Assembly: GCA_963969365.1 (NCBI GenBank)
Contig: OZ017759.1
Coordinates: 310,001 to 374,000, forward strand
Direction of reading: 5' to 3'
DNA length: 64,000 bases
Source: Asterochloris sp. CNOR1
Lineage: Eukaryota; Chlorophyta; Trebouxiophyceae; Trebouxiales; Trebouxiaceae
Shown here: positions 19,554-59,725 of the stretch, piece after piece
Position numbering within the stretch: the stretch's first letter is position 1
Layout of the letters: each line of letters starts with the position of its first letter
The notes under the pieces: generated by a model
What the model was told of the DNA's origin: nothing
The model's input: the letters and a program-made list of their open reading frames with translations, nothing else
Databases searched by the model: none
Position numbers and translations under genes: made by a program

Positions 19554-22500
19554 ATGGGCACCACGCGCTATAGCCACACCAGCTCGATGTGGCTCCAGTG
19601 CAGCAGCCTGGCATGGCTGCTCATGCTGGTCCTGCAGATCGGCCAGCTTCCCGCCCTACAGGCCAGCCCCTCGATATGGGGCAGCAGCTTCAGGAGCCTC
19701 TTCGGAGGCCGATCCCAGCAGCAGGCACCGCCCCAGCCCGGCTTCTTGCCGGCAGTGAGAAGGGTTCGAAACCTGCAGCAAGCCTCCACGCCCTGCTCCC
19801 AGCCGGAGTGGATCTGCACAGCCACAGATGGTAGCGAGACCACGGTCTCAGCCTCACTGCACGATCTCATCATCGGGGACCAGTGCCAGCAGCTGAGCCC
19901 AGACCTGGATGTGTATCGTTGCGGAACCTGCTCCTTGGTGCAGGGAGCCACAGTGAACATTGTGCGCACAGGCAGCTGCATGCAGTCCTGCCCCACAGCA
20001 ATCCAAGCAACGCCGCAGTGCGGGGCCCCTGCCCCCGCGCAACTGCCTGCTACCAGCACTGCTGCACCTGCGTCCAGCAGCACTGCGCAGCTTGCCAGCA
20101 CATCTGCACCAGCTGCAAGCATGTCTGCTCCATCGACCACTGTGCAGTCCAGCAGCTCTGCGCCGCTTGCCACCACAGCTGCGCCTGCTGTAAGCACGTC
20201 TGCTCCATCGACCACTGTGCAGTCCAGCATTGCAGTGCCCAGCACAACTGCCCTGCCTAGCATCAGCAGCAGCACAGTTGCACCCAGCACGAGCACTGCA
20301 GTGCCCTCCACAAGTGCACAGCTGCCTGCCACAAGCACGCCTGTGCTCACAAGCAGCAACACTGTGGCTCCCTCCACCAGTGCAACAGCAGCCTTCACCC
20401 CGCCTGCAGCTTCTGCCACCACCCCAGGTGAGATGGCATGGTAGCCCCTGCCAGGCATTGCTTCCTGGCAGCACTGCTTGCTGCCCTCTTTCATGTGCGC
20501 CTGAGTCATGATGATCCTGCGCACCAAGCTGGGTCTGATGAATTGCAGTGGTACCAGCAACCTCCACAGGAGCACCCAGCACCACAGCTGCGCCGGCCAC
20601 AACCACCACCACGCCCTCAAAGGTGCCAAACAGCCTGCAGAATGTGGGAGGCCCCGAGGTGCCGTTGCCGGTGCTGACAGAGGCACCTGCCACAGCCGTC
20701 CCAGTTTCGCCCAGTGCACCAGTGACCAGCCCAGCGCCTTACGCTGCTTCCACAGCCACTGCGGTACCGCTGACCACCGCAGCTGCCACAACAGGTACTG
20801 CGTTTGAGAGGCAGACATGCTGGCGGTGCAACACAGTAGTGGCTTGCTGGTATTGATCTGATCTGCTTTGTGCTGTGTATCTGCTGCACCCTCTCAGGAC
20901 CTCTGCACCTTGCATCCTGATGGGCCCACCTGCTCACAAGTGCCACTGCATGCTTTGCAGCTCCTGTCTCAACTAGTGCACCAGCACCCACCCTGGTGGT
21001 GCCCACAAGCACCTCCGCTGTGCCTGCGGTGACTGCCACACCTCCTGCCACGTCGAGTGCACCTGCTCCGGCCCCGGCAGCTCCTACCTCCTGCGCACTG
21101 GCCAACATCAGTGTGGCTCTGTGCGGCCCAAGCGCCGAGACAACCTCCAGCTACCCGCTCAGCAACTGCATAGCGCAGGTCACAGGTGAGGGTGACGGTG
21201 AAGGACGGCAGCGTCCACAGAATCTGCCATGTTTCGCACAGAGCGGGCGGCCATGGCAAGTCCTGGGAGGCGCCATGCTGCGTGCTTTGCTCCATGCTGC
21301 CATTCCAGGGGAGCTTCACCCCTGCTCGACATGCAACACTACCACTGATGCACAGTGCACGGTGCCTGAAGGATGCAGCATCGCGTCACGAGTGATTGCA
21401 CCCATTGCCTGTGCTGCAGGTGTTCCTGCACCCAGGGTGCTCCTGCAGACCATCAATGACTCCAGCATCCTGGCCTGTGGCACCACAGAGGCTAGCTCAG
21501 CCAGCTGCTGCTGCGACAGTGATGTCCAGGTCAACTTCTACATCACAGCTTCCAGCAATGCTGAGGCCCAGGGACTGACCAGCGCCTTCACACGCGCCAG
21601 CCTTGGCGCAAACAACTCGTTTGCAACCTGCCTGCAGCAGGTGGGAGTCTGCTAAGGACCTGGTTTGTACTGTCAGGACACCTGGCCCAGCAAGCTGCAC
21701 AGGCTTTGCAGGCTGGCAGCTGCACCTGTCTGTGCCCTGCCTTGCAAAGTCTTGTGTGGCCCTCGAGACACTCCTCACCTGCTCACATCTGAGCCTGGTG
21801 CCTGCAGGAGAGCAGCATCCTCGTTAATTGCGCCGCAATCATCAGCGCTCCAGGTCAGACCGTTTGCTGCTTCAAGCCTGTTCAACAGTGCTGAACTCTG
21901 CTACCAGACCTTGAGCAGAACGCACAAGTCTCCAGCACTTCTGCAAGCAGCCTCTGAGCATTGTGTTGCTCCAAGCTGCCGCTGCTGCCATGTTCTGCAC
22001 ATGCCCCTCTTCCTGGCCACTCTGAACCTGGTCAACCACTTGCAGAGGTGCTTCCAGCAACCAGCCCTGCAGAGTGCCCTCCTGGCACTGGGCCTGTGCC
22101 TGCCTCAGCTCCCGCTGCCGCGGCAGCGGCAGTCCCAGCCAGGAGCCCTGCGCCAATCACAAGCACAGCAGCCCCTGCAACCAGCACTCAGGCACCCGCC
22201 ACAACCTTGGCCCCAGTCACAACCACGGCAGCGCCAGTGATCACAGCAGCCCAGCCAAGCACCCCCACTGCACCAATACCAACCACAGCAGCCCCTGTGC
22301 CCACCACTGCTGCACCATTGTCAAGCGCTGCGGCGCCCTCAGCAGGGATGCCCATCACAGCTGCACCAGTCACAACCACAGCGGGCCCCACAAGCACAAA
22401 CCCCACAGAGGTGCAGGACGCAAATGCCAACCGTACGCGCCCTCCTGCCACTACAACATCACAGCCGCCCGTTAACCCGCCAACACCAACCGCAGTAGCA

Positions 22501-25500
22501 CCAGCCACGGCAGCAGGTGAGCTGTTTGCAGAAGGGAGGCAGAAGCCAGAATGTGTCTGTTGCATCTTTGTAGGCACTGTGAGGACTGCACACTGAGAGG
22601 ATCAGCTTGTTGCAGCGCACAATTTTGCTGGTCACAAACTACAGCGTGCTGCTTGCAGTGCCTGTCACCCCAACAGCTGCGCCAGCCACAACGGGGCTGC
22701 GCTCAACCAGCGCTGCTCCGGTCACTAGCACAAGCGCACCAGTCACAAATGCAGCGGTACCAAGCACAACGGCTGCCGCAGCAATCACAGCAATACCCAC
22801 AAAGGCACCAAATAGCCTCCAGAATGTAGGGGTCACAGAGGAGCCGCTGCCAGTGCTGACAGAGGCGCCAATCATAAACGTCCCTGCCACCAGCATACCC
22901 ACGTCAAGCCCCATGCTGTACGCTACTCCAGCCACCACTACAACAGCGCCCGCCATGACTACAGCTGCACCTGCAACCACTGCTTCCAAGACCACCACAG
23001 CAGTGCCAGCCAGCACCACAGGCGCACCAGCTGCAATCACAGCAGCGCCTGTTGTTGCCACCTCGACCCCAGCCACAACCTCAGCAGCAACGCCAAGCCC
23101 AGCTGTCTGCACAGATGTGCCCCCGCCTGGCTCAGCGCTGTCCTGCTCCCAGCTGGCTGCTGCTAAGCAGTGCAATGCCACCTACGTCAGCTCCATCGGA
23201 TACTGCCAGACCAGCTGCGGTCGCTGCCCAGGGGTCGCGCCTGCACCTGGGGCCCTGGCACCTGTGCCAGCAATCACCACAAGCGCACCAGCAACCTCAA
23301 CAATGGCCCCTACTACAGCAGCCCCTTCCACTGCAGCAGTGCCAAGCACAACCAGCACACCTGCAACTGCAGGTGAGGCCAGAGATGCTGAGCATGCCAG
23401 TGCACACAGACAGTGACACCCTTACTGTCTCATATGCAACCTGATGTGCTGACTGGTATGTGCCCCCTGCAGTGCCCACCAGCACAGCAGCGCCCTTCAC
23501 ACCCTCGCCGCCAACACCAACACTCACACCCTACACGGCAGCGCCCACCACGGCTGCACCTGTGACCATCACGTCTGCCCCTGCTACGAGCACTGCAGTG
23601 CCTGCAATCACCACAGCTGTGCCTGTGACCACCACAGCTGCCCCTGCTACGAGCACTGCAGCTCCTGTGACCAACACAGCTGCGCCAGTAACGAGCACAG
23701 CAGCTCCTACAAGGAGCCCTCTCAGGCCTGGCCTACAGAATGTGGACATCACTGAGGAGCCGCTGCCCGTCCTCACTGAGGCACCTGCCACTGCTACGCC
23801 CACCACAGCAGCACCCACCACTAGTGCACCCACGCCAAGCCCAACGCCTTATGTGGCCCCACTGACCTCCACAGCAGCGCCAGTACCCACCACAGCAGCG
23901 CCAGTACCCACCACAGCAGCGCCAGTACCCACCACAGCAGCGCCAGCATCCACCACAGCTGCACCCTCAACCACAACCGCAGCACCGGTGCCCACGACGG
24001 CTTCGCCAGCCAGCACAGTGGCAGCGTTCATCACGAGCGCAGCACCAGCACCCTCAGCTGTCCCCGTCAGCACCACTGGGGCTCCCGCCACCACCAAGCT
24101 GCCAAGCTTCATCCAGGCGCCCGTCACAGCAGTGCCCACGCCATCAGTTGCAGCGCCCACCACTGGGGCACCTGCAACTACAACCTCTCAGCCCATCCAC
24201 GGCACAGCTGCGCCTACCACAGCAGGTGGGCACCCCTCAGTTTGAAAACAAGGCTACCACATGTGCAAAAGGGCTCTACATGGCCATCAATAGGCATTGA
24301 CTTGCCTGGCGCCAACTTCCCACTGCTTACTGGCTCCCACCTCCTGGCTTGAGGACCTATGTTGACACAGATTCTTGCCTTCTTGCAGCAGCTCCTGCCA
24401 TGGCAGTGCCAGCCGCCTCTACTGCTGCTCCTGCCACCTCCACTGCTGCCCCTTCACCCTCCACTGCTGCTCCAGCCACCACCAACCCTACCAATGTGCT
24501 GGATGCCAACGCAAACAGAACACGTCCAGGGACAACGACTTCAGGTGTGGTTTTTGGGTCCCAGTCCAGTGTGCCTCCGTGATGTGCATACTCATGAAAT
24601 ACGCTCCTGATCGCCTTGCCTGATCCCTGCAGTGCCAGGCTCCACGCCAGCTGCCCCAAGCACCACTACAGTGGCGCCTACCCCGACCACAGTGCCAAGC
24701 ACAAGCGCTCCAGCCACCAGCGCTGCGCCTGCAACAACAACAGCTGCGCGCACCACTATAACTGCTGCGCCAGTGACAAGTGCACCCACACCAAGCCCCA
24801 CACCGTATGCTGCTTCAGCAACCACCTCTGTGGCGCCAGTTAGCACCAGTGCTGCTCCAGCCACCACCTCAGCGCCCGTGACCACCACGGCAGCCCCAGT
24901 GACAAGCGCAGCTGCACCTGTGACTAGCACAGCTGCGCCAGCAATCACCAGCACAGCAGTGCCGCCTGTAACCAGCACGGCGGCACCCACAACCCTTGCG
25001 GCCTGCACAGACGTGCCACCCCCTGGCTCAGCGCTGTCCTGCTCCCAGCTGGCTGCTGCGAAGCAGTGCAGTGCCACCTATGTCAGCTCCATCGGCTACT
25101 GCCAGACCAGCTGCGGTCGCTGCCCAGGGGTTGCCCCTGCACCTGGGGCCCTGGCGCCTGTGCCAGCAATCACCACAAGTGCGCCAGCAACCTCAACAAA
25201 TGCCCCTACCACAGCAGCCCCTTCCACTGCAGCAGTGCCTAGCACAACCAGCACACCTGCAACTGCAGGTGAGGTCAGAGATGCCAAAGATGCTGGTGCA
25301 CACGCTCAGTGACGCCCTTTCTGCCTCATCTCTTAAGAATTCTTCATGCAGCCCCATTGTGCTGACTGGCATGTGCCGCTGCAGTGCCCACCAACACAGC
25401 AGCACCTGTGACACCCTCGCTGCCAACATCAACACTCACACCCTACACGGCAGCGCCCACCACGCCTGCACCTGTGACCACCACAGCTGCCACCGCTATG

Positions 25501-28500
25501 AGCACTGCTGCTCCCGTGACCACCACAGCTATGCCCGTGGCCACCACAGCTGTGCCTTTGACTACTACGGCAGCTCCAGTGACCACCACAGCTGCGATTG
25601 TGACAAGCACAGCAGCTCCTACAGGGAGCCCTCTCAGGCCCACCCTGCAGAATGTGGACGTCACTGCAGAACCGCTGCCGGTGATCACCGAGGCACCTGC
25701 TACTGCGGCGCCCACCACAGCAGCCCCCACCATCAGTGCACCCACGCCAAGCCCAACGCCTTACGCGGCCCCACTGACCTCCACAGCAGCGCCGGCAGCC
25801 ACCACAGCAGCGCCGGCAACTACCACAGCTGCACCCTCAACCATGAGCACAGCACCAGTGCCCACCACAGCTTTGCCAGCCAGCACAGTAGCGGCTTTCA
25901 TCACGAGCGCAGCACCAGCACCCCCAGCTGTCCCTATCAGCACCACTGCTGCTCCAGCCACCACCCAGCTGCCCAGCTTTGTCCAGGTGCCGGTCACAGC
26001 TGTGCCCACGCCATCAGTTCCAGCGCCCACCACTGGGGCTCCAGCAACTACAGCCTCTCAGCCCACCACCAGCACCGCTGCACCTACCACAGCAGGTGAG
26101 CGACCCCCCTGTTTGAGAGGCTACAACATGTGCAACACGGCTCTACATGGCCATCAACAGGCAATCACCTGCCTGACACCAAGCTTCGCTGCTTACTGGC
26201 TGCCACTTCCAGGCTTAACAGCCGCTGTTGACACAGACATTCTGGCCTTCCTGCAGTAGCTCCTGCCACCTCGGTGCCGGCCACCTCCACTGCTGCTCCT
26301 ACCACCACCACTGCTGCGCCGACCACTACCAGCCCTACCGCTGTGCTGGATGCCAACACAAACAGAACACGTCCTCCAGGGACGACGACTTCAGGTGTGT
26401 TCCTTGCCCCAGGCCACTGTGGTTTTGTGCTTTTGTTTCTCTGCTAACCAAGGACCTTTCACCTATCATGGGCTTCTGACAGCCCTGCCTGATCCCTGCA
26501 GTGCCAAGTTCCACAACAGCTGCCTCAAGCACCACTACAGTGGCGCCTGCCACCACCACAGTGCCAAGCACTGCTCCAGTCACCACGGCTGCGCCAGTCA
26601 CCAGCGCACTTACACCAAGCCCCACCCCTTATGCTGCCCCAGCCACCACCAGTGCGGCTCCAGTCACCACCACAGCAGCGCCGGCAACGACCACGGCTGC
26701 CCCTGTGACCTCCACAGCAGCTTCAGTTACCACCACAGCAGCGCCGGCAACGACCACGGCTGCCCCTGTGACCTCCACAGCAGCTCCAGTCACCACCACA
26801 GCAGCGCCGGCAACGACCACGGCTGCCCCTGTGACCTCCACAGCAGCTCCAGTCACCACCACAGCAGCGCCGGCAACGACCACGGCTGCCCCTGTGACCT
26901 CCACAGCAGCTCCAGTCACCACCACAGCAGCGCCGGCAACGACCACGGCTGCCCCTGTGACCTCCACAGCAGCTCCAGTCACCACCACAGCAGCGCCGGC
27001 AACGACCACGGCTGCCCCTGTGACCTCCACAGCAGCTCCAGTCACCACCACAGCAGCGCCGGCAACTACCACGGCTGCCCCTGTGACCTCCACAGCAGCT
27101 CCGGTCACCACCACAGCAACGCCGGCAACGACAACGGCAGCCCCTGTGACCTCCACAGCAGCTCCGGTCACCACCACAGCAGCACCTGCGACCACCTCGC
27201 AGGTGGTGCTGGGCCCCACCACTCCCTACAGGTGCTCCCTAGGACCTGTGGTGGAGGCGCAGGCAGTCGTCTGCGGCTTCACCAGTGCCACGCTGTCTCC
27301 CACTGGGTTCCAGGTAGCCGTGGCAGCGGCCCTGACCCTGGGGTCCACCGCCAACCTTGGCGTGGTGGTCAACACCACCCTGCTCACCACAACAGGCACC
27401 TCCTGCCCCTACACGGCCGCTGCGCCAGCTCCTGCTGCCTCACTGCCCTCTGGGTCGGCCACAGGCAGCGGGACCTGCACAGCTGCCCAGGTGCATTTCT
27501 TCATTCAGGCGACCTCCACCAGCAATGCTCAGGACATCATCAACACCCTAGCCAAGAGCTCTGAGAGCATCTCTCTCTCCTTGGGCTCCAGCACGCCCCT
27601 GGGCCCAGTCTGCCTGGGCTACGCAGCAGCACCAGGTGCGGCTGGGCTGCATGGCTCTCATGTATGATGCATGTGCTGGATTTGTACCAAAATGTCATCT
27701 GCGTTCGCTTGTTGTGCTTGCCACAGTCTCATGTACATTGTGCAGTTCTGGGCCCATTCACTACTGTCAGACTGACTGACACCTTGCATTGTGCCCTGTA
27801 GTCACGATGATGCCACCCACCTTCCTGACATGTGCTGCACCAGCCCCTGCACCGGCAGCAGTGGTGTCGACCCTGCCTGCCACCAGCAGCGCAGCTCCAA
27901 GCACAAGTACCACAGCGCCCATCACAAGCACAGCAGCACCTGTCACAGTGACTGTGGCCCCAACGACGACAACAGCAGTCATGTCCACAGCTGCTCCTTT
28001 CACCACAACAGCAGCGCCTGCCACCAGCACAGCAGCTCCAGCAACTACAACTGTGACACGTGTGCCTGTCACCTCTGCGCTAGTCACAAGCACGGCTGCA
28101 CCTGCCACAACCGGAGTGCCTGTCACCACGACAGCTGCTCCCACCACCACCACTGCTGCTGCGCCAGCGCCCAGAACCTCTGTGCCGGTCACCAGCACTG
28201 TTGCGCCGCTGACAACCACAGCTGCACCCATCAGGCCTGCCCTACAGAACGTTGGGGTCACTGAGGAGCCCCTGCCGTTGCTGACAGCAGCCCCAACAAC
28301 CTCTGCGCCAGCGACCACTGCAGGTGAGCTCCTCATTGCAATTGTTCATTGCAGTGTTTGATGCGCTCTAAAGGTACATTGTCCCCTGCTGCTTGGACTG
28401 GCAGCATTGGCCTCAGTCAATGGTGTTGTTCATTCGAGTTACCTGTGGTCTTTGCATGCAGCCTCAACCACAGCTGCTGCAACCCCAACTGTGCCGACCA

Positions 28501-31500
28501 ATTCCGCGCCGGTTACGACCGCAGTGCCAAGGCCCTCCGTGCCTGCACCACCTCTCACACCATACGCTGTGCCCATAACAGCTGCCCCTCTGACGACAGC
28601 CATGTCAAGCACAGCTGCATCCACAGCTGCACCTGTGCCAGTCACCTCCACTGCTGCTCCTACAACCACCAACCCTACCGCAGTGCGGGATGCCAACGCG
28701 AACAGATCACGTCCTCCGGGAACCACAACCTCAGGTGTGTTCCCTGCTCCATCACCACTGTAATGCTGTGATTACATGTTGTGCATATCAAGGACTCACA
28801 CAGCTGACAGCTTGCCTGATGCCTGCAGTGCCAGGCTTCACAACAGCTGCCCCAAGCACCACTACCACTCTGATAGCTGCACCAGTGACGAGCGCACCCA
28901 CACCAAGCCCCACACCATCTGCTGCTCCAGCAACCACCTCTGTGGCGCCAGTCAGCACCAGTGCTGCTCCAGCCACCACAGCAGCGCCCGTGACCAGCAC
29001 GGCAGCCCCAGGGACAAGCACAGCTGCGCCTGTGACTACCACAGCTGCGCCAGTAAGTACCAGCACAGCAACGCCTGTGGCCAGCACAGCAGCTCCAGTG
29101 ACAACGATGGCGGCACCCACAACCTTTGCAGCCTGCACAGATGTGCCCCCGCCTGGCTCAGCGCTGTCCTGTTTCCAGCTGGCTGCTGCCAAGCAGTGCA
29201 ATGCCACCTACATCAGCTCCATCGGCTACTGCCAGACCAGCTGCGGTCGCTGCCCAGGGGTTGCCCCCGCACCTGGGGCCCTGGCACCCATGCCAGCGAC
29301 CAGCACAAGTGCACCAGCCACCACAAGAACAGCCCCCACCACAGCGGCCCCTTCCACTGCAGCAGTGCCTAGGACAATCAGCACACCCACAACTGCAGGT
29401 GAGGCCAGAGATGCCAAAGATGCAGTGCCACCCTGATTTGGATTCATCTTGTGAGAGTATTTATGCAAAAGCCCATGGTGCTGACTTGGCATGTGCCCCT
29501 GCAGTGCCCACCAGCACAGCAGCGCCCATCACACCCTCGCTGCCAACACCAACACTTGCGCCCTACACGGCAGCGCCCACCACGCCCGCACCTGTGACCA
29601 CCACAGCTGCCCCTGCTACCAGCACTGCTGCTCCCGTGACCACCACAGCTGCGCCCGTGACCACCACAGCTGCACCTGTAACCACCACAGCAGCTCCAGT
29701 GACCACCAAAGCTGCGCCTGTGACAAGCACAGGAGCTCCTACAGGGAGCCCTCTCAGGCCCAGCCTGCAGAATGTGGACGTCACTGCGGAGCCGCTGCCA
29801 GTCCTCACCGAGGCACCTGCCACAGAGGCGCCCACCACCAGTGCACCCACGCCAAGCCCAACGCCTTACGCGGCCCCACTGGCCTCCACGGCAGCGCCAG
29901 CTTCCACCACAGCAGCACCCTCAACCATGACCGCTGCGCCGGTGCCCACCACGGCTTCGCCAGCCAGCACGGCGGCAGCATTCATCACGAGCGCAGCACC
30001 AGCACCCTCGGCTGCCCCCGTCAGCACCACTGCTGCTCCAGCTACCACCCAGCTGCCCAGCTTCGTCCAGCTGCCGGTCACAGCAGTGCCCACGCCATCA
30101 GTTCCAGCACCCACCACCACGCCCTTTGCAACAGCTGTGCCCACTACTGGGGCACCAGCAGCCACAACCTCTCAGCCCACCACCAGCACAGCTGTGCCTA
30201 CCACAGCAGGTGGGCACAGCCTGTTCGAAAGGCTACAACATGAGCGTCAGGGCTTTACATGGCTATTAACAGGGATTCACCTGCCCAATGCCAAGCTTTG
30301 CTGCCTGCTGGCTGCTGTTTCCAGGCTTGATGGCCCATGTTGACATAGGCATTCTGGCATTCCTGCAGCAGCTCCTGCCAGCACGGTCCCAGCCACCTCC
30401 ACATCTGCTCCTACCACCTCCACTGCTGCTCCCACCACCACCAGCCCTACTGCTGTGCTGGATGCCAACGCAAACAGAACACGTCCTCCAGGGACAACGA
30501 CCTCAGGTGTGTTGTTTGGCCGCAGTCTGGGTTATGATCACCTTCTATGCATTCAGGGACTCACAGTCCTGACAGCCTGGTGCAACTCCTGCAGTGCCAA
30601 GCTCTACTTCAGCTGCCCCAACCACTACTACAGTGGCGCCTACCACGATCACAGTACCAAGCACAAGTGCTCCCGTCACCACTGCTGCGCCAGTCACCAG
30701 CGCGCCCACACCAAGCCCCACCCCTTATGCTGCCCCAGCCACCACCAGTGCAGCCCCAGCAACCACCACTGCGGCCCCTGCTACCAGCACAGCTGCTCCA
30801 GCCACCACCACGGCTGCACCAGTGACCAGCCATGTGGCACTTGCTACAAGCACAGCCGTGCCGTCAACATCAATCGCGCCTCTCACAAGCAGTGCAGTGC
30901 CGGTCGCAACCACGGGTGCCCCTGCACCACTGCCAGCACCCAGCACAGGCGCGCCCAGCACAACTGTGCCAAGCACCACAGGTAATTGCTGTCCTGAATC
31001 TTACGATGCATAGCAGATGCACTCTCCTGCTCTTGGGGTTTCCAGTCTAGTCTTAGCAGCCCAGACTCATGCACAAGCATCATCTGCTGTCTCTAGACAT
31101 GTTTCACTCCTGCCTCCAGTGAGAGCTGCAACACCAACCTCCACAGCTGCTCCGATCACCAGCACCACAGCTCCCAGTACTTTGCCTGCGACCACTGTGG
31201 CTCCAGCCCAGGCGCCGACCACACCTTACAGCTGCTTCGATGGGCCCCTGGTGAAGGCAACTGCGGTCATCTGCGGCTACAACAGCAGCACCCTGAGCCC
31301 CACCACAGTCCAGAATGCTGTGGCGGCAGCGCTCAGGACCAGGTCGCCTGTGTTGGCGCCTGGAGTTGTTGTCAACACCAGCACCAGCAACACTGTTGGC
31401 CCAGGCTGCTCAGCAGGGGCCCCTGCCCCTGCGCCTGCAGCCGAGGCCTCCGTGCCAGGGGTTGCCAGCTCCTGCCCTGCCATGGCCGTCACTTTCTACG

Positions 31501-49500: not shown

Positions 49501-52500
49501 ACCACCACAGTACCCACCACACCCGTCAGCACGGCAACAACTGCTGCGCCCTCTACAACCACAGCTGCACCTGCCACCACCTTTGTGCCAGCTGCGCCTG
49601 CCCCAGCACCGCTGGTGTCCACGCCTGCGCCTGCCACAACCACAGCTGCACCTGCCACAACAACAGCGGTGCCTGCCACAACCGCAGCGGTGCCCACTCC
49701 ACCGGTCAATGTCGAAAACGGGACTGCCAATAGGTCACCAGCACTGTCGACCACCACCGCCGCTCCCCTCACACCGCCAGCAGTGCCCAGCAGCTCAGCA
49801 CCAGTGCCTGTGCCTGCACCCCCGGCCACCACAGCTGCCACCATTGTGCCCAGCAGCGCACCCACCACCACAGCAGCACCCACCACCACTGCCGCTGCGA
49901 CAGTGCCCAGCCCAGTGGTCAACACCACAAGGGCTCCAGCCACCACCACCCTGGCACCAGCAAGCACTGCAGCCGCCGGCATGCCAAGCACCAGTGCTGC
50001 CCCAGCGACTCCTGCCAGCAGCACAAGCGTGCCTGTGACCACCACAAGTAAGACACACTGCACAGCATTTCTGGCCAGCATTGGCGGCATGTGGCAGTGC
50101 AACTTTCTGCCAGCGCTCCCAGCAAGATGCAGGCACTCGCAGATGTGACAGTCCCTGACGACATCAACCCCATGCTGCAGGGCCAGCGCCCACAACTGCC
50201 ACCCCAACCTCAACCGCATCGACACCTGTGGGAACCACAACAGCACCCACCACAAGCGCTGCAACAGTCAGTACAAGCGCAGCTCCAGTCAGCAGCACCG
50301 TAGCTCCAGTGTCTGCCCTGACAACCCCTGCCCCTCAGCAGAGTATTGCACAGGCACCTACGGCCCCACCAGCGCAGGCTCTGGTCTGCAATGGCAACAC
50401 AGCCCCTGCAGAGTCCTACGTCTGCGGCACCAGCGGGGTGGTGTACACAGCCAGCGAGTACAGCGCTCTGCAGGCCTCCCTGGGCGCCTGCACTGCCCTG
50501 GCAGGCACCAACAGCGCCAAGTGCGGCAGCTTTGTGCTGGCCAACGATGCCTACCAGGCTGTGGTTGGCAACACCTGCACCCCGCAGTGCCAGGCTGCCA
50601 CAGCTCCCTGCCCCGGCACAGCTCCTGCGCCAGCGCCTGGAATCCTAGGTGTGCCTTGCAGTGTGCTTTGCTGTGTCATGAACACCATCTGATTCAGCAA
50701 GAAGGGTGCTTGATCAACTCTACCTACTTTACTGAAAGCCTTTTGGCTTCAGAAGGTGGCCTGCTGCCTGCAGTGACGACAGCAGTGCCTGCCACAACAG
50801 TGACTACCACCTCTGCTGCGCCAACCACTGCTGCCACAACCACAGGGTCCCCTGTGACCACAGCAGGCAAGTCTCCTGAGCAGCAAACATGCTAAGTGCG
50901 CCACACTTTTTGCAAAAATCCTTGCCGAGCATTTGGCAGCTGCTCACATGCAAGGCTTTGCCCTGCAGCTGCCGCCACCACCCCCGCTGGCACCCCTGGC
51001 CCCTCTTCTGCGCCAGCCGCAACCACTGCAGTGCCAAGCAGCCATTCTGGGACACCAGCTGTCACTGGCACACCTGCCTCCACCGCCAGCTTGGGTGAGA
51101 AGCGCCCAGAGCTCGCCAGCTCAGACAAGCAATCTCAGCAGCCACAAGACCGGCTGCCTGACAATCTCTTGAACTTACCAATGCATGCACTATCATGCCA
51201 TCAAAGGGCCCTTTTGATGTTGTGCAGGAGCTACCACAGCAACACCCACCACGCCAGCAGCAAGTGTGCCTGCTCCAGCCGCCACCACCGCCTCGCCCGC
51301 TGTCACGCCTGCAGCCCCTGGAGTCACTACCACGCCGGCCACCACACCAGCTGTGCCTGCCAGCCCACCATTCGCTGGCACACCTGTCGTGACCACAGCT
51401 GTCCCTGTCACCAGCACAGCAGCCTCCACATTGGCGCCAGCCACCACCGCAGCCACCTCAGGCGTGCCAGGCAGCTCAGCTGCCCCCAGCACATCTGCGG
51501 CACCCTCTACCACCGCAGTGCCGCTTGTGAGCACCGCCCCTGCCCCGGGGCAGGTGGTACTGACTGGGGCGCCAGGTACCACTGCTGTGCCAGCCAGCAC
51601 CGCTGCTGCAGTGCCTGGGAGCCCACCAGCTCCAGCCACCTCAACAGCCGTGCCAGCCAGCACAGTAGCAACCTCAGGCACCACAGCAGCGCCAACCGCT
51701 GCCCCTGTCCAGTCCATCCCCAACCAAGTGGAAGGCGTCAATGCAGGCAGCCCGCTGCCCCTGCTGACGCCAGCACCACGGACCAGCACAGCTGTGCCTG
51801 TGTCTGGCACAGCTCCAGTCCCAGCAACTGTCACACCAGCAACTCCAGGTCAGCTTTGCTCAGGCAATGAAACTCCATGCCTGCCTGTTGCCATGAAGTA
51901 TCAGGAGCGCGCTTGCTGGAACCCCCCTGCTCAAAGCATATCTGCCCCAGGCTGCCCCTCACCCCTGCACTTGACTGCTGAACCCTTTGCTGCAGTCCCT
52001 GGCACGCCCCTGACCTCCGCAGCCCCAGGAGCAACAACTACAGTGCCCAGCCCAACAGTGGGAGTGCCCACACCTTCAGGTAGCTGCTGTCCTGCCTGTA
52101 TGCCAGTGCAGCAAACAGGCAGCCTTCATACATAGGTGCAAGCGCAGCTTCATGGTGCCCCACATTGTACTCACTGAAATGTGTCTGCTACAGTCACAAC
52201 TTCCTCTCCAGCTACCTCTGCCACACCAACCAGCAGCCCGCAGCTGGTGCTCAGCACAGCAGTTCCAAGTGCCACGGCAGGGGCTCCCACTGCTTCAGGT
52301 ACTTGCAGAGATACTGTTGGCTGGCTAACATGTGCTTTCCTCATGGAAGTGGCCAAACCTTTCACGTCCTCATGGTTCCCTTTGCAGTCCCAGGAGCTCC
52401 CTCCACAACTTCAGTGCCAAGCACCACCGTCACCAGCACGGTTGTGCCAAGCACCTCGGCTACAGCTCTGCCGCCAGGTGAATCTGCATGAGCCACAGCC

Positions 52501-55500
52501 TGCTATGTGCTGGTGTTGCTGTTGCCAGGGCAGGTGCCTCGTGCTGGAAGTCGCTCCGAGCGGGGTCACTCATCGCTGTGCAGGTGTGCCAGTGACAACT
52601 TCAGCTGCTCCTACAGCACCCTCTGCAGCATTTGGCACGCCAGTGCCAAGCAGCACAGCAGGCACCCCTGCAACAGCAGGTGAGTCTGAAAGAGCAGGAC
52701 ACCTCATCCCTAGACAGGCAGAGCACCCTGCTCCCTGGCTGCCGCATGACCTCATCTGTGCCTGACCCCAGTCGCTTTTCTGCAGTCCCTGCTACCAGCA
52801 CCACAGTGCCAGCTGTCACTACCAGCCCATCTGTCACCACAAGTGCCCCTGGCATGTCAGCTTCGCCATCAGTCTCAGCAGGTGAGAACCCTTTGCCTGT
52901 GGCTGTGCTGCAAAATGTGTACACTACACTGAGCACAATGTTCTGATTCATTCCCAGGTGTTGACATGCTCCTGTTGATGTGCAGTCCCCCCCACAGCAT
53001 CCCCATCAGCGATGACTACCACACCCGCAACAAGTCTGGTGGCCCCAGCTCAGGCGCCCACCACGCCCTACAGCTGCTTCGATGGCCCCCTGGTGGAGGC
53101 CACAGCCATTGTCTGCGGCTACAGCGCCAGCACCCTGAGCCCCACCGCAGTGGAGGACGCTGTTGCTGGGGCTCTGCGGACCAGGTCCCCTGTGCTGGTG
53201 CCTGGCATTGTTGTCAACACGTCAATCAGAAGCATCGTGGGCCCAGGCTGCTCAGCAGGGGCACCTGCCCCAGCGCCAGCGGCTCTGGCACCTGCAGGCG
53301 CTAGCTCCTGCCAGGCTGCTGCTGTCACGTTCTACGTGGAGGCAGAGAGCACTCAGGACGCCAACACGGTGGCCCAGGTGCTGGCCAGCTACCCTCAGGA
53401 CGTCGCCGCTGCCCTACAGGTTGGCAGCACCACAGCTTTGGGGCCAGTCTGCCTCAGCTACCCTGCTACTCCAGGTGAGAGCTTTGCCCTTGATTGGTGG
53501 AAGATCGATGCCTCCAATGCCTGCCTAAAGTTTGAGCTTTGCATGCACGCTCTGGCAGCCCCACTGTGCTTGCTTGCTGCCTGCCTAGGTGCGTCCAAGT
53601 ACGGGCCGGACACTAATTCATGCTTCCCTCTGTGCTGCAGTCATCCTGCAGCCCAGGACCTTCCTGAGTTGCCTGGCGCCTGCGCCTGCACCTGCACCAG
53701 CAGCAGTGACAGCAGTGCCTACTGCGGTGCCCAGCACAACGGGCGTGCCAGCCTCAGGCACCTCTGCTGCTCCAACCATACCAAGCACGACCAGCGCGGC
53801 TCCTGCTGGCACCACAAGTACTCCTGCTGCCACGCCAGCCACACGTAGCACAACCACCCTCAGCCCAGTGCCTGCTGCCCCAGGCATCACCACCACAGCT
53901 GCGCCAGCCATCACCACAACGGCTGCACCTGGCAGCACGCTCTCGGCTGCACCGGGGACCAGCACCACAGCTGCACCTGGCAGCACGCTCTCGGCTGCAC
54001 CGGGGATCAGCACCACAGCTGCACCTGGCAGCACGCTCTCGGCTGCACCGGGGACCAGCACCACAGCTGCACCTGGCAGCACGCTCTCGGCTGCACCGGG
54101 GAGCAGCACCACGGCTACACCGGGGAGCAGCACCACAGCTGCTCCTGGCAGCACCAGCACTGCCGCCCCCGGCATCACCACCACGGCTGCACCCAGCATC
54201 ACCAGAACGGCTGCACCTGGCAGCACGCTCTTGGCTGCGCCAGCCATCACCACAACGGCTGCACCTGGCAGCACGCTCTTGGCTGCACCGGGGATCAGCA
54301 CCACAGCTGCTCCTGGCAGCACCAGCACTGCCGCCCCCGGCATCACCAGCACGGCTGCACCCAGCATCACCACACGTGCTCCTGGCGTGCCAACGCCAAG
54401 CCAGCCGACGCCCCTGCCAATCACCTATGTGCCAGTGCCTTCCTCGCTGCCAAACTTTGCGGTTTCGCCTGCCAGCACACCGGCAACTGCTGTGCCTGCC
54501 GGCACCACCACAGTGCCATCCACAGCGGTGCCAGGAGCACCTTTGCTGTCCACTTCTGTGCCAGCCACAACAGCTGCTGCCTCATCGCCAGGCGTCAGCA
54601 CCACTGCTGCGCCAACATCTGGAGTGCCAACCGCCTTATCCCCCACAGGACCACCTGCAACGCCCTCTAATCCAGCAGCTGGCCCGGTGGCCACACCCTA
54701 CAAGTCAGCTGCCCCAGTGCAGACTGCACAGCCGCCAGTTGGCACACCACTCTTTGGGCTCACACCAACGCCCTCAGCCACCCAGGGCCAGCCTGGGGAG
54801 AGCCAGGTGCCACCCTCAGGGACAGAGATGCCCCTGGGCAGCCTGACACCAGAGAGCCCGCCAGGTGAGCCAGTGCATGCGGCAATTTTTGAGCTTTTGC
54901 ACACCACAGCATCTCTGTTACTGTCATGCAGTCTGTGCTCTATAGCTGCCTTCAAAGCAATCTATGCCCGACAGCTGCCATCAGGACATGGCATCAGCAG
55001 CCTGTTGCTCATGCATACACGCACACACACAGTGCTGCATGTTAAGATGTGCCTGCATTGCTGCCAGAGGGTTTCACAGAGCTTCCTTTTATGCAGGCAC
55101 TCCAGGAGCAACCACACTGGCCCCTGCTACACCATCGACCACAGCACCCCTCACAGCGGTGCCAGGCTCAACCGCCTCCACGCCTGTCATCCAGCAGCCC
55201 ACAGGACAGGCCACTGCCAGCCCTGGGAGCACGACAGCTGCACCTGCTCAGGCACTCACACCAGCAGGCGAGCCATCTTCCAGCCTGCTGCCAAAGCAGC
55301 CACTCACACCAACAAGTCACAGCAGGCTGCCGGCGCCCTCATGCACCGTCTGTTCATCAAGCACACTGCTGGGTTGCAGGGTCTCTGTGCATCTGCTTGC
55401 CACCAGGAAGCTGTTGGCAGCAGCCTTGTTGGGGCACCAGCCACTCAGCAGTTACCGTCCATCTCTCACAACGTCCAACTGCTTCTGTACAGGTGCACCG

Positions 55501-58500
55501 CTCCCAGCCCAGGCCCTGCCGTCCTTCACCTGCGCCGATGGGAGCACACCCAGTGAGGTCATCTGCCAGTACAACGGCACCCAGTTCTGCTTTGACGGCA
55601 CAGATGCCAACAACCTGACCGCCTTCATCTCAGCTGGGCAGTGCCAGAGCCTGGTAGGCTCCACCACGGCCCTATGCGGAGGCAGGGAGGTGGTTGACAT
55701 GGCATCGCTGCAGGCTCTGGAGCAGGGCCAGTGCAGCCCTGTCTGCGGCCCTCGCTCTGCAGTCTGTGGCGCACCAGCGCCTGCCCCTGGCCCCACCTCT
55801 GTGCTCGCCACGGTGGTGCCTGTGACACGCGCTCCTGCTGCCACCACGTCGGCCGGGGCCCCTGTGCCTCTGGCAGCACCGCCTGCAACAACTGCTGGCG
55901 TGCCTGCCGCCACCAGCGCTCCGGCGGCCACCACAGCTGCCGGTGTGCCTGCCACAAGCACCCCAGCCAGCAACACTGCAGCGGGCACTCTCCTGACAAG
56001 CTCGCCGGCCAGCACCACTGCTGCTGGAGTGCCAGTCACCAGCACGCCTGGTGCCACCACTGCAGCAGGCACACCTGTGACCAGCACCACTCCAGGAGGA
56101 CCGCCGGCAACCAGCACGCCTGGTGCCACCACTCTGGCAGGAGCGCCGGCAACTAGCACGCCTGGTGCTGCCACCGCAGCAGGCACACCTGTGACCAGCA
56201 CCACTCCGGCAGGAGTGCTAGTCACCAGCACGCCTGGTGCCACCACTCCGGCAGGAGCGCCGGCAACCAGCACGCCTGGTGCCACCACCGCAGCAGGCAC
56301 ACCTGTGACCAGCACTACTCCAGCAGGAGCGCCTGCGACCAGTACACCTGGTGCCACCACCGCAGCAGGCACACCTGTGACCAGCACCACTCCAGCAGGA
56401 GCGCCTGCGACCAGTACGCCTGGTGCCACCACCGCAGCAGGCACACCTGTGACCAGCACCACTCCAGCAGGAGCGCCTGCGACCAGTACGCCTGGTGCCA
56501 CCACCGCAGCAGGCACACCTGTGACCAGCACCACTCCGTCAGGAGTGCCAGTCACCAGCACGCCTGGTACCACCACTCTGGCAGGAGCGCCGGCAACTAG
56601 CACGCCTGGTGCTGCCACCGCAGCAGGCACACCTGTGACCAGCACCACTCCGGCAGGAGTGCCAGTCACCAGCACGCCTGGTGCCACCACTCCGGCAGGA
56701 GCGCCGGCAACTAGCACGCCTGGTGCCACCACCGCAGCAGGCACACCTGTGACCAGCACTACTCCAGCAGGAGCGCCTGCGACCAGTACGCCTGGTGCCA
56801 CCACCGCAGCAGGCACACCTGTGACCAGCACCACTCCAGCAGGAGCGCCTGCGACCAGTACGCCTGGTACTACCACCGCAGCAGGCACACCTGTGACCAG
56901 CACCACTCCGGCAGGAGCGCCTGCGATCAGTACGCCTGGTGCCACCACCGCAGCAGGCACACCTGTGACCAGCACCACTCCGGCAGGAGCGCCGGCAACC
57001 AGCACGCCTGGTGCCACCACCGCACCAGGCACACCTGTGAGCAGCACCACTCCAGCAGGAGCGTCGGCAACTAGCTCGCCTGCTGCCACCACTGCAGCAG
57101 GCACACCTGTGACCAGCACTCCTGCAGCCACCACTGCTGCTGGACTGCCAGTCACCACAACCTCGCCGAGCAGTACAGCGTCATCAGGAGCGCCTGCCAC
57201 TAGCACTCCTGCAGCCACAAATGCAGCAGGAGCGCCTGTCCTGGCTGCTCCGGCTGGGCAGCAGGCCACCACTGCAGTGCCAGCTGGCGTGCCCACAACA
57301 AGCACTCCTGTCAGCACCACTGCTGCTGGGGCGCCCATCACTAGCACACCAGCTGCCACCACTACTGCTGGCGTGCCAGTCACCAGCGCGCCTGCCGCCA
57401 CCACCGCAGCAGGAGTGCCTGTGACGAGCACACCTGCTGAAACCACAGCTGCTGGAGTGCCAGTGGGGTCCCCAGCCTCAGGCATTCCTGCACAGAGCGT
57501 GGCCACCGCAGCCCCTGGCACACCTGCGGGCCAGCAGACAGCTGCCCCAGGCACACCCACAACCAGCGATGCGCCAGGCACATCCACAAGCAGCTCTGCG
57601 CCAGTGCCACCGCCAGGGACACCTGCAGCAGCTGGAGGCGCGCCCGCTCCAGGTGAGGGCCTCAGACACTCTGGGTGTTGACACTTATGTACGCTTTTGT
57701 CTAACGTGCCACACCAACAGCGGCGGCCAGGCCTGACACTGTGCCAGCCCTGCCTTGGTCCGGCAGCATCGATTGCTGACTGTTGGTGAAGTTGAGAGGG
57801 GGGTCAGCCTCTGTGTTCTTGTCAGCAGCCCAGATGGACAGGTTTTCTCACAGTGCTTGCTTCCCTGCAGGGCTGCCCCTTCCTGTCACCACAGTGCCGC
57901 CCGTCAACACCACGCAGCTGGGGACTCCCTTCATAAACCTGCCAACAGGCAACCTGCCTGACAGTGTTACCAGGACTCGTGCGCCAGGCAGCCCCAGCTC
58001 TGCAGAAGCTCCAGGTAGGCTTATCCTACCTGCCTCCCATGCTGGGCAAGCCACACAATATGATGAAGCGCCAGCAGTGCCTTGCTTGCATGGTGCATGG
58101 GGATCTGTGCAGCATCTGCTTGCCTGCCATGCTGACTGTAACTTGGAAAAGACCTTCTCCCTGTTGTTGCAATTGATGACAATGAGACCCAGCAACTCCT
58201 GAAGCTAATTCCCATGCCCTGCAGCACCCGCGGTGCAGCCGCTCATTACGGCGCCCACCTGCGCATGCAGCAGTGCTGGCGCCAGCCCAGCAGCCACACC
58301 AGCTGCCCCCACCATCACTTACATCTACAACGACACCTGCGCGCCAGCAGGCATCGCACCAGCAAGCAGCCCCATCGGGGCAGTGTACTTCACTGCCGTT
58401 GTCCAGTTTGCCACAGCTGTGCCGGCTGGCGCCTTCAGCGCTGCCAACATCACAGTGGCTGCTGCAGCGCCCTTCACTCCTGGCAGCAGGGGCGCCTGCG

Positions 58501-59575
58501 GTTGCCAGCAGCAGCCCAGGAGGAGTTATGCACCTGGTGAGGGCTTGTGAAACCTGCATAGCCGTCCACTTTGCAGGGTGCTGAGCTCATCGATGCCCCA
58601 CTGCCCAGTGTGTTATCAGGGGTCGAAGCTGTGCCTCCCCCTGAGAGTGCAAGGAGCTCCCCCAGCCCTTGAGGGTGCTGGGGAGACCATGCCCTGCTAG
58701 GCTCATGTGGGCAGCCTGAGATTGTCGATGGCAGCCTGACTGACCGCTCTGACTGCCCTGCAGGCCCTGGCGTCATCACTGCGCTCAATCAGACAGACTG
58801 CACCACCTACGTTGTGCAAGGGTACCTGCCAGAGAGCCTGGACAACTCCACAACAGTCAGCCTCAGCATAAGCTCAGGCGTTGACTCCTGCGGCGCAGCC
58901 ATTCCAGCTGGGCAGCAGACAGTTGTGGCGGACAACAGGTGAGGGACCTCTGATGTGCCAGCCCATACAGCCTCCTGCCTTGTGGCCCAGCCTGTATGAT
59001 TCTGTGCACTCCAGTCATTCTGTGAAGCGCCCTGCTAAAGCTGCCCTGCAGTCTGGCGGCTGAGCTGCCAGATCAGCTGCTGAAGTCAGGCCTTAGCCAT
59101 TGAAATTGGATGTCCGGCCTGAAGGCCTGTGTGAGCCCAATTGCACCATGAGCATTCCTGCTGACACTGCTGTGCTGTCTGCTGCAGGCCACGGGGCATG
59201 ATCTATGGCAGCGGCAGCTTTGCCTTCACCAATGGGTCTGCCATCTCCACCAACCCCTCAGTGGCTGTGTTCACGGTGGCCTTCTCGGAGGCGGTGTCTG
59301 GGATCAGCACCTCATCCTTCGTGGTCAACGGCCCGCCCAGCGCCACCCTGGCTGTGGCGCCTCTGAGCGGTCAGGCCTACAGGCTGCGGGTGAACACGCC
59401 TTCAGGCTACTGCGGGGCAGTGACTGTGACTCTGATTGAGCCCTTCACAGACTCTGCTGGGCAGGGCAGCTGCGACCAGCCGTCCATCACGTATCTCAAG
59501 AGCTGCGGCACAGACAGCGGCATGGCGGAGATCACTGCCACACAGTACATCCCTCCAGTTGCCTCATGCAGCTGA
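19554..59575 (+). CDS. Giant secreted mucin-like modular glycoprotein, 64 exons, about 10,231 residues
   Basis: ATG 19554 opens a signal peptide (residues 1 to about 37, core LAWLLMLVLQI, likely cut after ALQA). TGA 59573-59575 closes the frame. Between them are long A/P/T/S/V stretches (TTTAAPV-type heptads, expected to be densely O-glycosylated). They alternate with cysteine modules: D at 19794, 41168, 50387 and 55531; C at 21092, 36683 and 48592; ShK-like at 23108, 25004, 29134 and 32719; B at eight sites from 27203 to 53039; and an Ig-like C-terminal end. No transmembrane segment or GPI-type tail is seen, so the product is probably soluble or cross-linked extracellular matrix (inference). 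Predicted mass is near 1 MDa before glycosylation. Every exon is open and phases match at all 63 junctions, so I treat it as a live single gene. Splitting into two or more genes is the main alternative. Confidence 0.88.
19794..20021 (+). other. Module D, N-terminal divergent copy
   Basis: Cysteine-rich segment directly after the signal peptide region: PCSQPEWICTATDG, then DQCQQLSPDLDVYRCGTCSL, then GSCMQSC and PQCGAPAPAQ. Spacing (C..C, QCQ.L, CG, C...C, C) parallels the copies at 41168, 50387 and 55531, so it is probably a diverged relative. No catalytic residues are evident. Confidence 0.5.
21092..22077 (+). other. Module C, copy 1 (spans exons 3-6)
   Basis: Reads CALANISVALCGPSAET, then VPAPRVLLQTINDSSILACG, then SASCCCDSDVQVNFYITASS with AEAQGLTSAF, ending at TCLQQ. 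A 46-bp exon (LVNCAAIISAPG) and the AECPPG start of exon 6 complete it. Unlike copies 2 and 3, its body is split by an extra intron (21186-21419) that is open and divisible by three. Confidence 0.75.
23108..23227 (+). other. ShK-like module 1
   Basis: Forty residues from CTDVPPPGSALSC to YCQTSCGRC with six cysteines in the C.D..P...C....K.C......YC..SCGRC pattern of ShKT-type domains. These are common in secreted algal, plant and nematode proteins and do not imply toxicity. It sits near the end of exon 7 and is followed by PGVAPAPGALAPVPA. Confidence 0.8.
23878..23955 (+). repeat. 21-bp coding repeat APVPTTA, 3-4 units (exon 8)
   Basis: Three perfect units of gcgccagtacccaccacagca and one variant (APASTTA). 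Absent at the same place in the paralogous exons 11, 17 and 23, so a local expansion. Confidence 0.85.
25004..25123 (+). other. ShK-like module 2
   Basis: Nearly identical to module 1 (QCSATYVSS instead of QCNATYVSS). It lies in exon 10 and is the first element of the duplicated block ShK - F - G - B - B2/F - G. Confidence 0.8.
26666..27196 (+). repeat. 63-bp coding minisatellite, 8 units (exon 13)
   Basis: Unit encodes TTTAAPATTTAAPVTSTAAP plus V, made of three 21-bp heptad subunits. Eight units are nearly identical. The paralogous exons have about three units (34312-34489) and two units (39409-39545) at the same place, just before module B, so copy number has changed since duplication. Confidence 0.9.
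27203..27833 (+). other. Module B, copy 1 (exons 13-14)
   Basis: Six-cysteine module: TTPYRC, AVVCGF, GTSCPY, GTCTAAQVHFFIQATS, PLGPVCLGY, then after a 166-bp phase-1 intron MMPPTFLTC. A central VxFxxxAxSxxxAxxxxxxL segment resembles module C. It is followed by AAPAPAPAA. I know no named family for it. Confidence 0.85.
29134..29253 (+). other. ShK-like module 3
   Basis: Forty residues in exon 16. It differs from module 1 at two sites (SCFQL for SCSQL, TYISS for TYVSS). All six cysteines are kept. Confidence 0.8.
31199..31888 (+). other. Module B, copy 2 (subtype PYSC; exons 20-21)
   Basis: TTPYSCFDGPLVKATAVICG, then VGPGCSAG, SSCPAMAVTFYVEAQSTQDA and LGPVCLSYP, then intron, then IIQPRTFLSCLAPAPAP. 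Same six-cysteine plan and same intron site as copy 1, with a different sequence subtype shared with the copies at 42444, 44598, 46644 and 53039. Confidence 0.85.
32719..32838 (+). other. ShK-like module 4
   Basis: In exon 22. Identical in protein to module 3 over the 40 residues as far as I can read, so a recent copy. It opens the second long duplicated block. Confidence 0.8.
34523..35146 (+). other. Module B, copy 3 (subtype PYRC; exons 25-26)
   Basis: Almost identical to copy 1 at the DNA level, including much of the intervening intron. It differs mainly at TADLAVVVNTT versus TANLGVVVNTT. It is part of the second duplicated block. Confidence 0.85.
36683..37283 (+). other. Module C, copy 2 (exons 28-30)
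   Basis: SCALANVSVALCGSTAATTA, LQSCIAEAAGIAPARVLLQS, LPCGSTATATSCCCTSAVAV, NFYMSAASDAEATALNRAF and GCLQ, then a phase-0 intron, a 46-bp exon (AINPTCAAVTSAPG), and GPQQCPYALAPVPAP in exon 30. Confidence 0.8.
39575..40165 (+). other. Module B, copy 4 (subtype PYRC; exons 34-35)
   Basis: Close to copies 1 and 3 (GSCTAAQVQFFIQATS, GLSTPLGPVC), but its intron (40008-40133) is no longer recognisably similar, so an older duplicate. The sixth cysteine is in VVMPPTFLTC. Confidence 0.85.
41168..41392 (+). other. Module D, copy 2 (exon 36)
   Basis: LVCSGNTAPAESYVCGTNGV, VYTASEYSALQASLGACTAL, STKCGSFVLANDAYQAVVSN, TCAAQCQ and ACPESAPAPAPA. VCGTNGVVY faintly recalls the Kazal core, but the other cysteines do not fit, so no family is assigned. 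Confidence 0.7.
41785..41905 (+). repeat. 21-bp coding repeat TTTAAPA (exon 37)
   Basis: Five to six tandem heptad units with alternating gctgcgcct and gctgctcct spellings, typical of slippage or unequal exchange in the A/P/T tract. Confidence 0.8.
42444..43082 (+). other. Module B, copy 5 (subtype PYSC; exons 38-39)
   Basis: Very similar to copy 2 (SSCPAMAVTFYVEAQSTQDA). Exon 39 supplies VILQPRTFLSC and then a long 370-residue A/P/T tract. Confidence 0.85.
44598..45220 (+). other. Module B, copy 6 (subtype PYSC; exons 40-41)
   Basis: VEATAIVCGYSASTLSPTAV, SSCQAAAVTFYVEAQTTQDA and LGPVCLSYP, then VMLQPRTFLSC after the intron. With copies 7 and 8 it forms a closely related trio. Confidence 0.85.
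45299..45460 (+). repeat. 18-bp coding repeat VPSTTS, 9 units (exon 41)
   Basis: Nine tandem units of gtgccaagcaccaccTCA or AGT directly after module B copy 6. This is the only place with a six-residue rather than seven-residue period. Confidence 0.9.
46644..47301 (+). other. Module B, copy 7 (subtype PYSC; exons 42-43)
   Basis: Near-identical to copy 6 (TLSRTAVEDAV; YPQDVAAALQIS). The sixth cysteine is in VILQPRTFLSC of exon 43. Confidence 0.85.
48592..49226 (+). other. Module C, copy 3 (exons 45-47)
   Basis: Strongly similar to copy 2 (APARVLLQSVADADALPCGS; CCCTSAVAVNFYLSADNYDE). Same exon plan: phase-0 intron after GCLQ, a 46-bp exon (TINPTCAAVTSAPG), then AGQCPYALAPAPAP. Confidence 0.8.
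50387..50611 (+). other. Module D, copy 3 (exon 48)
   Basis: About 90% identical in protein to the copy at 41168. Both are preceded by the same TPAPQQSIAQAP lead-in, so exon 36 and exon 48 are duplicates. Confidence 0.75.
53039..53672 (+). other. Module B, copy 8 (subtype PYSC; exons 57-58)
   Basis: The last copy, about 5.7 kb after copy 7, has VNTSIRSIVGPGC and FYVEAESTQDANTVAQVL. The following exon carries VILQPRTFLSC and the 48-bp minisatellite. Confidence 0.85.
53925..54375 (+). repeat. 48-bp coding minisatellite AAPGSTLSAAPGISTT (exon 58)
   Basis: Roughly nine units or part-units of 48 bp, with APGSTLSA, APGISTTA and APGTSTTA variants. It introduces Gly into an otherwise Gly-poor tract. 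Confidence 0.85.
55531..55766 (+). other. Module D, C-terminal divergent copy (exon 60)
   Basis: FTCADGSTPSEVICQYNGTQ, FCFDGTDANNLTAFISAGQC, ALCGGREVV, GQCSPVCGPRSAVCGAPAPA. Its cysteine spacing resembles the other D copies but it carries extra cysteines. It precedes the 72-bp minisatellite. Confidence 0.6.
56035..57120 (+). repeat. 72-bp coding minisatellite with 444-bp higher-order period (exon 60)
   Basis: About 12 full units of 24 residues (GAPATSTPGATTAAGTPV plus TSTTPA), with 45-bp short units interspersed. The same short-long-short order (LAG unit, AAT unit, GVxVTS unit, then standard units) begins near 56121 and again near 56565, so a ~444-bp block was itself duplicated. It lies in one 2160-bp exon. 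Confidence 0.9.
58225..59575 (+). other. C-terminal Ig-like region (exons 62-64)
   Basis: The composition changes from A/P/T repeats to globular sequence. Exon 62 has TYIYNDTCAPAG, VYFTAVVQFATAVPAGAFSA and ANITVAAAAPF. Exon 63 has CTTYVVQGYLPE and VSLSISSGVDSCG. Exon 64 has FAFTNGSAISTNPSVAVFTV, AFSEAVSGISTSSFVVNG and YRLRVNTPSGYCGAVTVTLI. The VxFTVxFSEAVxGxxxxxFxVNG pattern is that of bacterial-type Ig-like domains found in large surface proteins. It may anchor or cap the fibre (inference). Confidence 0.7.
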
Positions 59576-59720: not shown

Positions 59721-59725
59721 TGTAA
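59721..59725 (+). terminator. TGTAA polyadenylation signal
   Basis: TGTAA, the usual chlorophyte poly(A) signal, lies 146 nt past the giant gene's TGA, in a T-rich stretch. It is the first one found after the stop, which supports 59575 as the true 3' end. Confidence 0.6.

Follow-up and report, generated by a model that had tools for sequence, protein, structure and literature searches.

Animal gel-forming and membrane mucins consist of P/T/S-rich repeat tracts broken by cysteine (Cys) modules, and the pherophorins and other volvocine Hyp-rich glycoproteins (HRGPs) bear Cys domains. Usual wall glycoproteins are much smaller than the near-megadalton giant protein predicted here; PKZILLA-type giants are also known. 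Secreted Hyp-rich matrix glycoproteins are already known from green algae (available part of PMC10762512), and a published survey lists green-algal proteins of 22,244, 21,004, 16,440, 15,797, and 11,464 aa (available part of PMC6681478).

The window analyzed here is a stretch of 64,000 nucleotides from Asterochloris sp. CNOR1 (C14:310001-374000 of a 56.4-Mb genome in 21 contigs, photosynthetic as judged by 31 chlorophyll-binding matches). Its plus strand carries what is likely to be a single nuclear gene for a secreted, unanchored, chimeric Hyp-rich extracellular-matrix glycoprotein of ~10,200 residues (958 kDa before modification), grown by tandem duplication of exon blocks. The gene model, module selection, block duplication, composition, and modifying-enzyme families were computed for this reading. 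With the chimeric arabinogalactan proteins (AGPs) and HRGPs of green algae and plants, the predicted protein shares a PAST content above 50%, dispersed AP/PA/SP/TP glycomodules, folded modules set in the tracts, and what may be a signal peptide at the N-terminus; it differs in its length of ~10,200 residues, in having F and G modules whose scanned copies reach no Pfam cut-off, and in a C-terminus that is not strongly hydrophobic, unlike a GPI signal. Green algae likewise secrete Hyp-rich proteins into the matrix in the form of pherophorins and other volvocine matrix HRGPs (available part of PMC10762512), but in the eight pieces of the giant protein scanned no Pfam domain passed its cut-off, and there are no SPPP runs. 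Animal mucins share the P/T/S-rich tracts with Cys modules and possibly the SEA-like fold of F and G, whereas here Ala is as abundant as Thr, Pro lies mostly in X-Pro glycomodules, and no Pfam mucin domain was found in the eight pieces scanned. Giant algal polyketide synthases share the size class, with up to 22,244 aa in the available part of PMC6681478, but are multidomain enzymes, whereas the giant protein is repetitive and probably structural. An earlier sequence-only reading had placed the product among the largest predicted algal proteins, which is fair, although it is not the largest in that survey.

The gene was modeled with a GHMM whose training set was 36 TCP1/HSP70 loci from the same genome (codon seeds from 35; 17 merged segments; 135 introns), followed by a second step of self-training on the codons of the window. 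The trained model followed a BiP-like gene as far as its HDEL terminus. Two HSP70 exon matches (C13:1549656-1549835 and 1574821-1575000) have equal scores and lie ~25 kb apart, which suggests a recent duplication. With the ATG at 19554 imposed, the window-adapted model gave 64 exons, a CDS of 30,633 nt, and 10,210 aa, in agreement with the single 40-kb, 64-exon gene of ~10,200 residues followed in the sequence-only reading; the sole stop in the frame of the GHMM translation is its last codon. The 63 introns are 88-306 nt long (median 138), and 59 are in phase 1. The main features of the gene are as follows.

19554..59575, plus strand: whole gene (GHMM, start imposed)
19554..20427, plus strand: exon 1, with the signal-peptide-like hydrophobic N-terminus, a Cys module at 19785-20024, and the first A/P/S/T tract
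55493..57652, plus strand: exon 60, the longest exon (2,160 nt), holding the longest tandem array (56009-57119)
58225..59575, plus strand: C-terminal part (E62-E64), with a Cys segment, an Ig-like domain, and the TGA end
59721..59725, plus strand: TGTAA, 146 nt beyond the stop, a weak poly(A) signal for this genome

The unadapted model leaves the locus unresolved: it scored the plus strand at 90.9 (a 38-exon, 1,479-aa gene ending at 59575) and the minus strand at 110.6. After self-training on the window codons, the plus-strand gene again ended at 59575. When the start was left free, it fell at 18779 in one run and at 19623 in another, never at 19554; the 19554 start was adopted because the frame is open after an in-frame stop and because the N-terminus is hydrophobic. 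The TGTAA noted 146 nt past the stop is present, but was rejected as proof of the gene end: the motif lies downstream of only 2 of 11 predicted training-gene ends (up to 600 nt inspected, less where the segment stopped), and of 15 copies in the window, five are inside the giant gene (two of these intronic). An Rfam scan of the window gave no match at gathering score.

The sequence-only reading had held that frame consistency across the junctions was implausible by chance. One frame is open in 31 exons, two in 23, and three in 10, and the product of open/3 is ~10^-18.4; a frameshifted control, with one base removed from each of 32 exons, was still joined into a single gene (79 junctions, 9,066 aa), so frame consistency alone is weak proof and the statement was too strong. 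Splice quality separates the real model from the controls and is near that of ordinary genes: the mean donor-plus-acceptor score is 12.94 for the real sequence, 10.14 for the frameshifted, 6.46 for the minus strand, -0.03 for the reversed, and -0.26 for the complement, against 13.69 (6.24+7.45) for the training introns. Total GHMM score was rejected as a discriminator, since the reversed (7,622) and complement (7,401) sequences exceeded the real one (4,205). Within the span, the junctions rank at a median percentile of 98.1 among 1,691 GT donors and 97.5 among 2,871 AG acceptors; TGCAG ends 57 of the 63 acceptors, three of 63 donors are GC, and a site scores below 2 at three junctions (the I1 acceptor and the I25 and I37 donors). 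Training introns are longer (median 355 nt vs 138) and less often in phase 1 (23/135 vs 59/63). By our own tally, 29 of the 63 junctions have homology-type support, and the other 34 have splice signals and frame only. The case is carried by splice quality, by purifying selection on modules that cross introns, and by blocks duplicated with their introns.

The modules are distributed along the gene as listed below.

21086..22086, plus strand: G module copy 1, parts of E3-E6, three introns crossed
36677..37292, plus strand: G module copy 2, E28-E30, two introns crossed (weak fold model)
48586..49236, plus strand: G module copy 3, E45-E47, two introns crossed
23108..23233, plus strand: ShK-like six-Cys module copy 1 (E7)
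25004..25129, plus strand: ShK-like module copy 2 (E10), used for the Pfam scan
29134..29259, plus strand: ShK-like module copy 3 (E16)
32719..32844, plus strand: ShK-like module copy 4 (E22)
27221..27854, plus strand: F module copy 1 (E13 27221-27635 and E14 27802-27854)
31221..31909, plus strand: F module copy 2 (E20 31221-31638 and E21 31857-31909)
34541..35167, plus strand: F module copy 3 (E25 34541-34955 and E26 35115-35167)
39593..40186, plus strand: F module copy 4 (E34 39593-40007 and E35 40134-40186)
42468..43103, plus strand: F module copy 5 (E38 42468-42885 and E39 43051-43103)
44622..45241, plus strand: F module copy 6 (E40 44622-45033 and E41 45189-45241)
46668..47322, plus strand: F module copy 7 (E42 46668-47079 and E43 47270-47322)
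53063..53693, plus strand: F module copy 8 (E57 53063-53474 and E58 53641-53693)
41156..41395, plus strand: K (Cys) module copy 1 (E36)
50375..50614, plus strand: K module copy 2 (E48)
55519..55770, plus strand: K-related Cys module (E60), 33% identical to K copy 1

All eight F copies cross an intron, and dN/dS is 0.08-0.52 in each of their 28 pairs; dN is also below dS in all three G pairs, the one K pair, and all six ShK pairs. These values indicate purifying selection on modules whose reading frame continues across introns. The sequence-only description of Cys modules without a family name, set in A/P/T tracts, held up; no F or G copy scanned passed a Pfam cut-off. Its ShK label fits the four six-Cys copies in likeness only: the single copy scanned reached 12.1 bits against the PF01549 cut-off of 20.9, and PF01549 passes its cut-off at four places elsewhere in the genome, none of them listed in the giant gene. 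The E36 K copy scored 12.6 bits against the Kazal (PF07648) cut-off of 22.8, and the E60 copy had no Kazal match. Weak structure models suggest a ferredoxin-like, perhaps SEA-like, fold for F and G, with SEA-type structures among the tied matches of both; Foldseek with the F model gave no match at E 0.001, and neither F nor the C-terminus matched a solved structure by sequence at E 1. Profile comparison of F with G gave a probability of 42, too low to call them one family, and that of F with K aligned nine columns. The most hydrophobic 19-residue stretches of the protein are in the F modules; because these are more hydrophobic than the N-terminus (1.95 vs 1.54), membrane insertion is possible.

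Larger units recur as super-repeats.

22659..24632, plus strand: super-repeat U1 (E7-E9 with introns)
24633..28828, plus strand: super-repeat U2 (E10-E15 with introns)
28829..32407, plus strand: super-repeat U3 (E16-E21 with introns)
32408..36386, plus strand: super-repeat U4 (E22-E27 with introns)
38039..40988, plus strand: super-repeat U5, shorter (E32-E35 with introns)

The five super-repeats measure 2.0-4.2 kb and share 75-94% of their sequence in stretches of at least 400 nt, and among the introns between duplicated exons there are five homologous families: exon blocks were duplicated together with their introns. Short linker motifs also recur in the first half (window 20549-40988), namely QNV...PLPVLT (eight copies), a DANANRTR type (eight), and APTPSPTPYA (nine).

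The locus is probably a single gene. A row of neighboring genes from one family, with separate starts and ends but joined by the gene finder, would account for modules in tandem repeat, for the frameshifted control that was still joined (a sign that the gene finder prefers joining), and for the five internal TGTAA motifs and one internal ATG followed by a hydrophobic stretch; we nevertheless regard it as quite improbable. Every gap between exons is 88-306 nt, and splitting was favored at none of 60 scored junctions (three of the 63 were dropped, no stop being met): at 31 the stretch from the first in-frame stop to the end of the following exon contains no ATG, and at the other 29, with mild penalties applied, the intron outscored the split by 13.5 log units or more. 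Among 76 in-frame ATGs, a hydrophobic mean of at least 2.2 follows only 19554/19587 and 43020/43026; the latter two lie inside F copy 5, which a start at 43020 (following stretch 2.81, vs 2.24 at the N-terminus) would split. That the locus is decayed or expanding low-complexity DNA, not expressed as protein, is most improbable: tandem arrays are many (97 rows in the window, nearly all within this gene), but a single frame is open throughout, dN is below dS in the module copies, and the splice sites are good. Shorter transcripts deserve more weight. Because 55 of the 62 internal exons are symmetric (phase 1-1) and could be skipped without a change of frame, and because 11 small tract-encoding exons measure 84-138 nt, exon skipping might usually shorten the product, so that 10,210 residues would be an upper limit and length variants the real products. 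CAG junctions in phase 1 also exceed the expectation from composition (52/56 vs 66%, p 2e-6, duplicated blocks not corrected for). Against this, much of the phase bias is compositional, as 66% of the CAG in coding sequence that are not at junctions end in phase 1 anyway, and mean splice scores are close to those of the training introns; we consider usual shortening unlikely, though a serious alternative to the full-length single gene. For the same compositional reason, the phase-1 excess was rejected as sole proof of exon shuffling.

Composition argues for the arabinogalactan class. PAST makes up 71.9% of the whole protein, above the AGP threshold of at least 42-50%, and 1,297 of 1,591 prolines follow A/S/T/V, with 1,332 non-overlapping glycomodules. 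AGP-like stretches with at least three glycomodules (97, from our own script) cover 6,697 of 10,210 residues at an index of 0.188 and PAST of 82.5%, within the thresholds of glycomodule spacing of at most 10 residues, index of at least 0.15, and PAST of at least 55% (composition thresholds from the available part of PMC5266747). The HPAT family has 12 genome matches at three places and the prolyl-hydroxylase-type family has four. Extensin SPPP(P) repeats do not characterize the protein, with no SPPP, five PPP, and one YxY. The N-terminal hydrophobic stretch has a 12-residue mean of 2.24 (start codon imposed), and the best such mean in the C-terminal 40 residues is 0.55, not strongly hydrophobic. 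From composition and gene families, the tracts are better read as those of a chimeric arabinogalactan-type Hyp-rich glycoprotein than as mucin-like. The earlier picture of a secreted, mucin-like protein with O-glycan-type tracts was thus apt as to probable secretion and A/P/T tracts, but Hyp-O-glycosylation of the AGP type better suits the PAST content, the index, and the HPAT genes. A true mucin analogue bearing GalNAc-type O-glycans on Thr and Ser could draw on the Thr (22.8%) and Ser (10.7%) contents of the whole protein, on heptads such as TTAAPVT, and on the SEA-type structures among tied F and G model matches; set against the HPAT genes of this genome and the Hyp-rich glycoproteins described for green algae (available part of PMC10762512), it is very unlikely.

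For the AGP-type protein, we infer secretion, hydroxylation, glycosylation, disulfides, and a matrix role. The putative signal peptide would lead into the secretory path, and the A/P/S/T tracts (~two thirds of the length), with prolines mostly after A/S/T/V, would undergo the hydroxylation and O-glycosylation typical of arabinogalactan proteins, so that the chain forms a long brush, stiff and hydrated. The disulfide modules (eight F, three G, four ShK-like, three to four K-type, and one Ig-like C-terminus) may form folded knots that cross-link or bind wall carbohydrate, and the gene grew as blocks of three to six exons were duplicated in tandem along with their introns. An extended polyproline-type chain measures 0.31 nm per residue; the 6,697 AGP-like residues would then span ~2 micrometres, by arithmetic rather than measurement. 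A more specific proposal, which we hold to be possible but rather doubtful, is that green algae arrived at a mucin-like plan through a giant matrix protein restricted to one lineage: Hyp-glycosylated tracts would alternate with SEA-like modules, the gene would grow by copying blocks of exons and introns, and skipping of symmetric exons would let the cell set chain length.

As far as our searches show, three things are new: so large a size in a protein of this type, the modules F and G, and growth by exon-intron blocks. In the literature searches, no paper describes this protein in its title or abstract opening. If the full transcript exists, one alga makes a structural glycoprotein of nearly a megadalton; the locus would then clearly illustrate how a matrix protein can lengthen through exon-intron block duplication, and would allow one to test if so long a low-complexity CDS is spliced and translated intact. 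The host is a lichen alga, so the giant protein is a candidate component of the surface facing the fungal partner, a lead and not a result.

Four relatives were found, all on contigs. A search of 5.77 billion proteins with F found three, namely P0002 and P0004 on ENA contigs and P0003, which matches exon 38 and is listed without source, as the window's own proteins are. The C-terminus found two (P0005 and P0006); P0005 shows 82% identity across 44% of the query, and its open frame ends at the same residue as the giant protein. Because the search depends on exact words in common and restricts candidate length, it may pass over relatives that are distant or spliced. F also gave 20 pattern matches in viral contigs and 11 in bacterial/archaeal genome contigs, none of which was confirmed as a homolog, and among 394 candidates of giant length (~5,500-17,500 residues) none matched F at E 0.01.

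Elsewhere in the genome, C13 holds a single diverged F (E 0.0015) whose last intron shares its place and phase with that of the giant gene's F; a gene model for this paralog appeared only with window-adapted codons, and the unadapted model placed no gene there. At C13:71001-79000, the smaller gene model has one F module beside a proline run and a basic RKLL-type insert between the module halves. A paralog of the C-terminus on C2 (E 1.3e-4) has an intron at the same place in phase 2; the multi-domain gene that holds this Ig-like paralog (C2:1756001-1763000) also has sub-threshold Big_12 and BACON_2 matches. C16:1969379 (E 0.009) is a candidate F relative; the gene models there score only 3.5-4.2 and show no F. 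G matches at E <0.001 are confined to the giant gene.

Other predicted genes surround the locus. On the plus strand, a six-exon gene at window 60263-64000 runs past the window edge and has no Pfam match at E 0.01, and a small gene at 8804-9634 has a sub-threshold match to GFA (formaldehyde-activating; 19.4 vs 24.3 bits). On the minus strand, a WD40-repeat gene piece at 365-2020 (45.3 bits) appears only with a relaxed start penalty, and a 15-exon gene at 10690-16372 combines SPRY (44.2 bits) and CTLH (58.7 bits), which we take to be a RanBPM-like arrangement.
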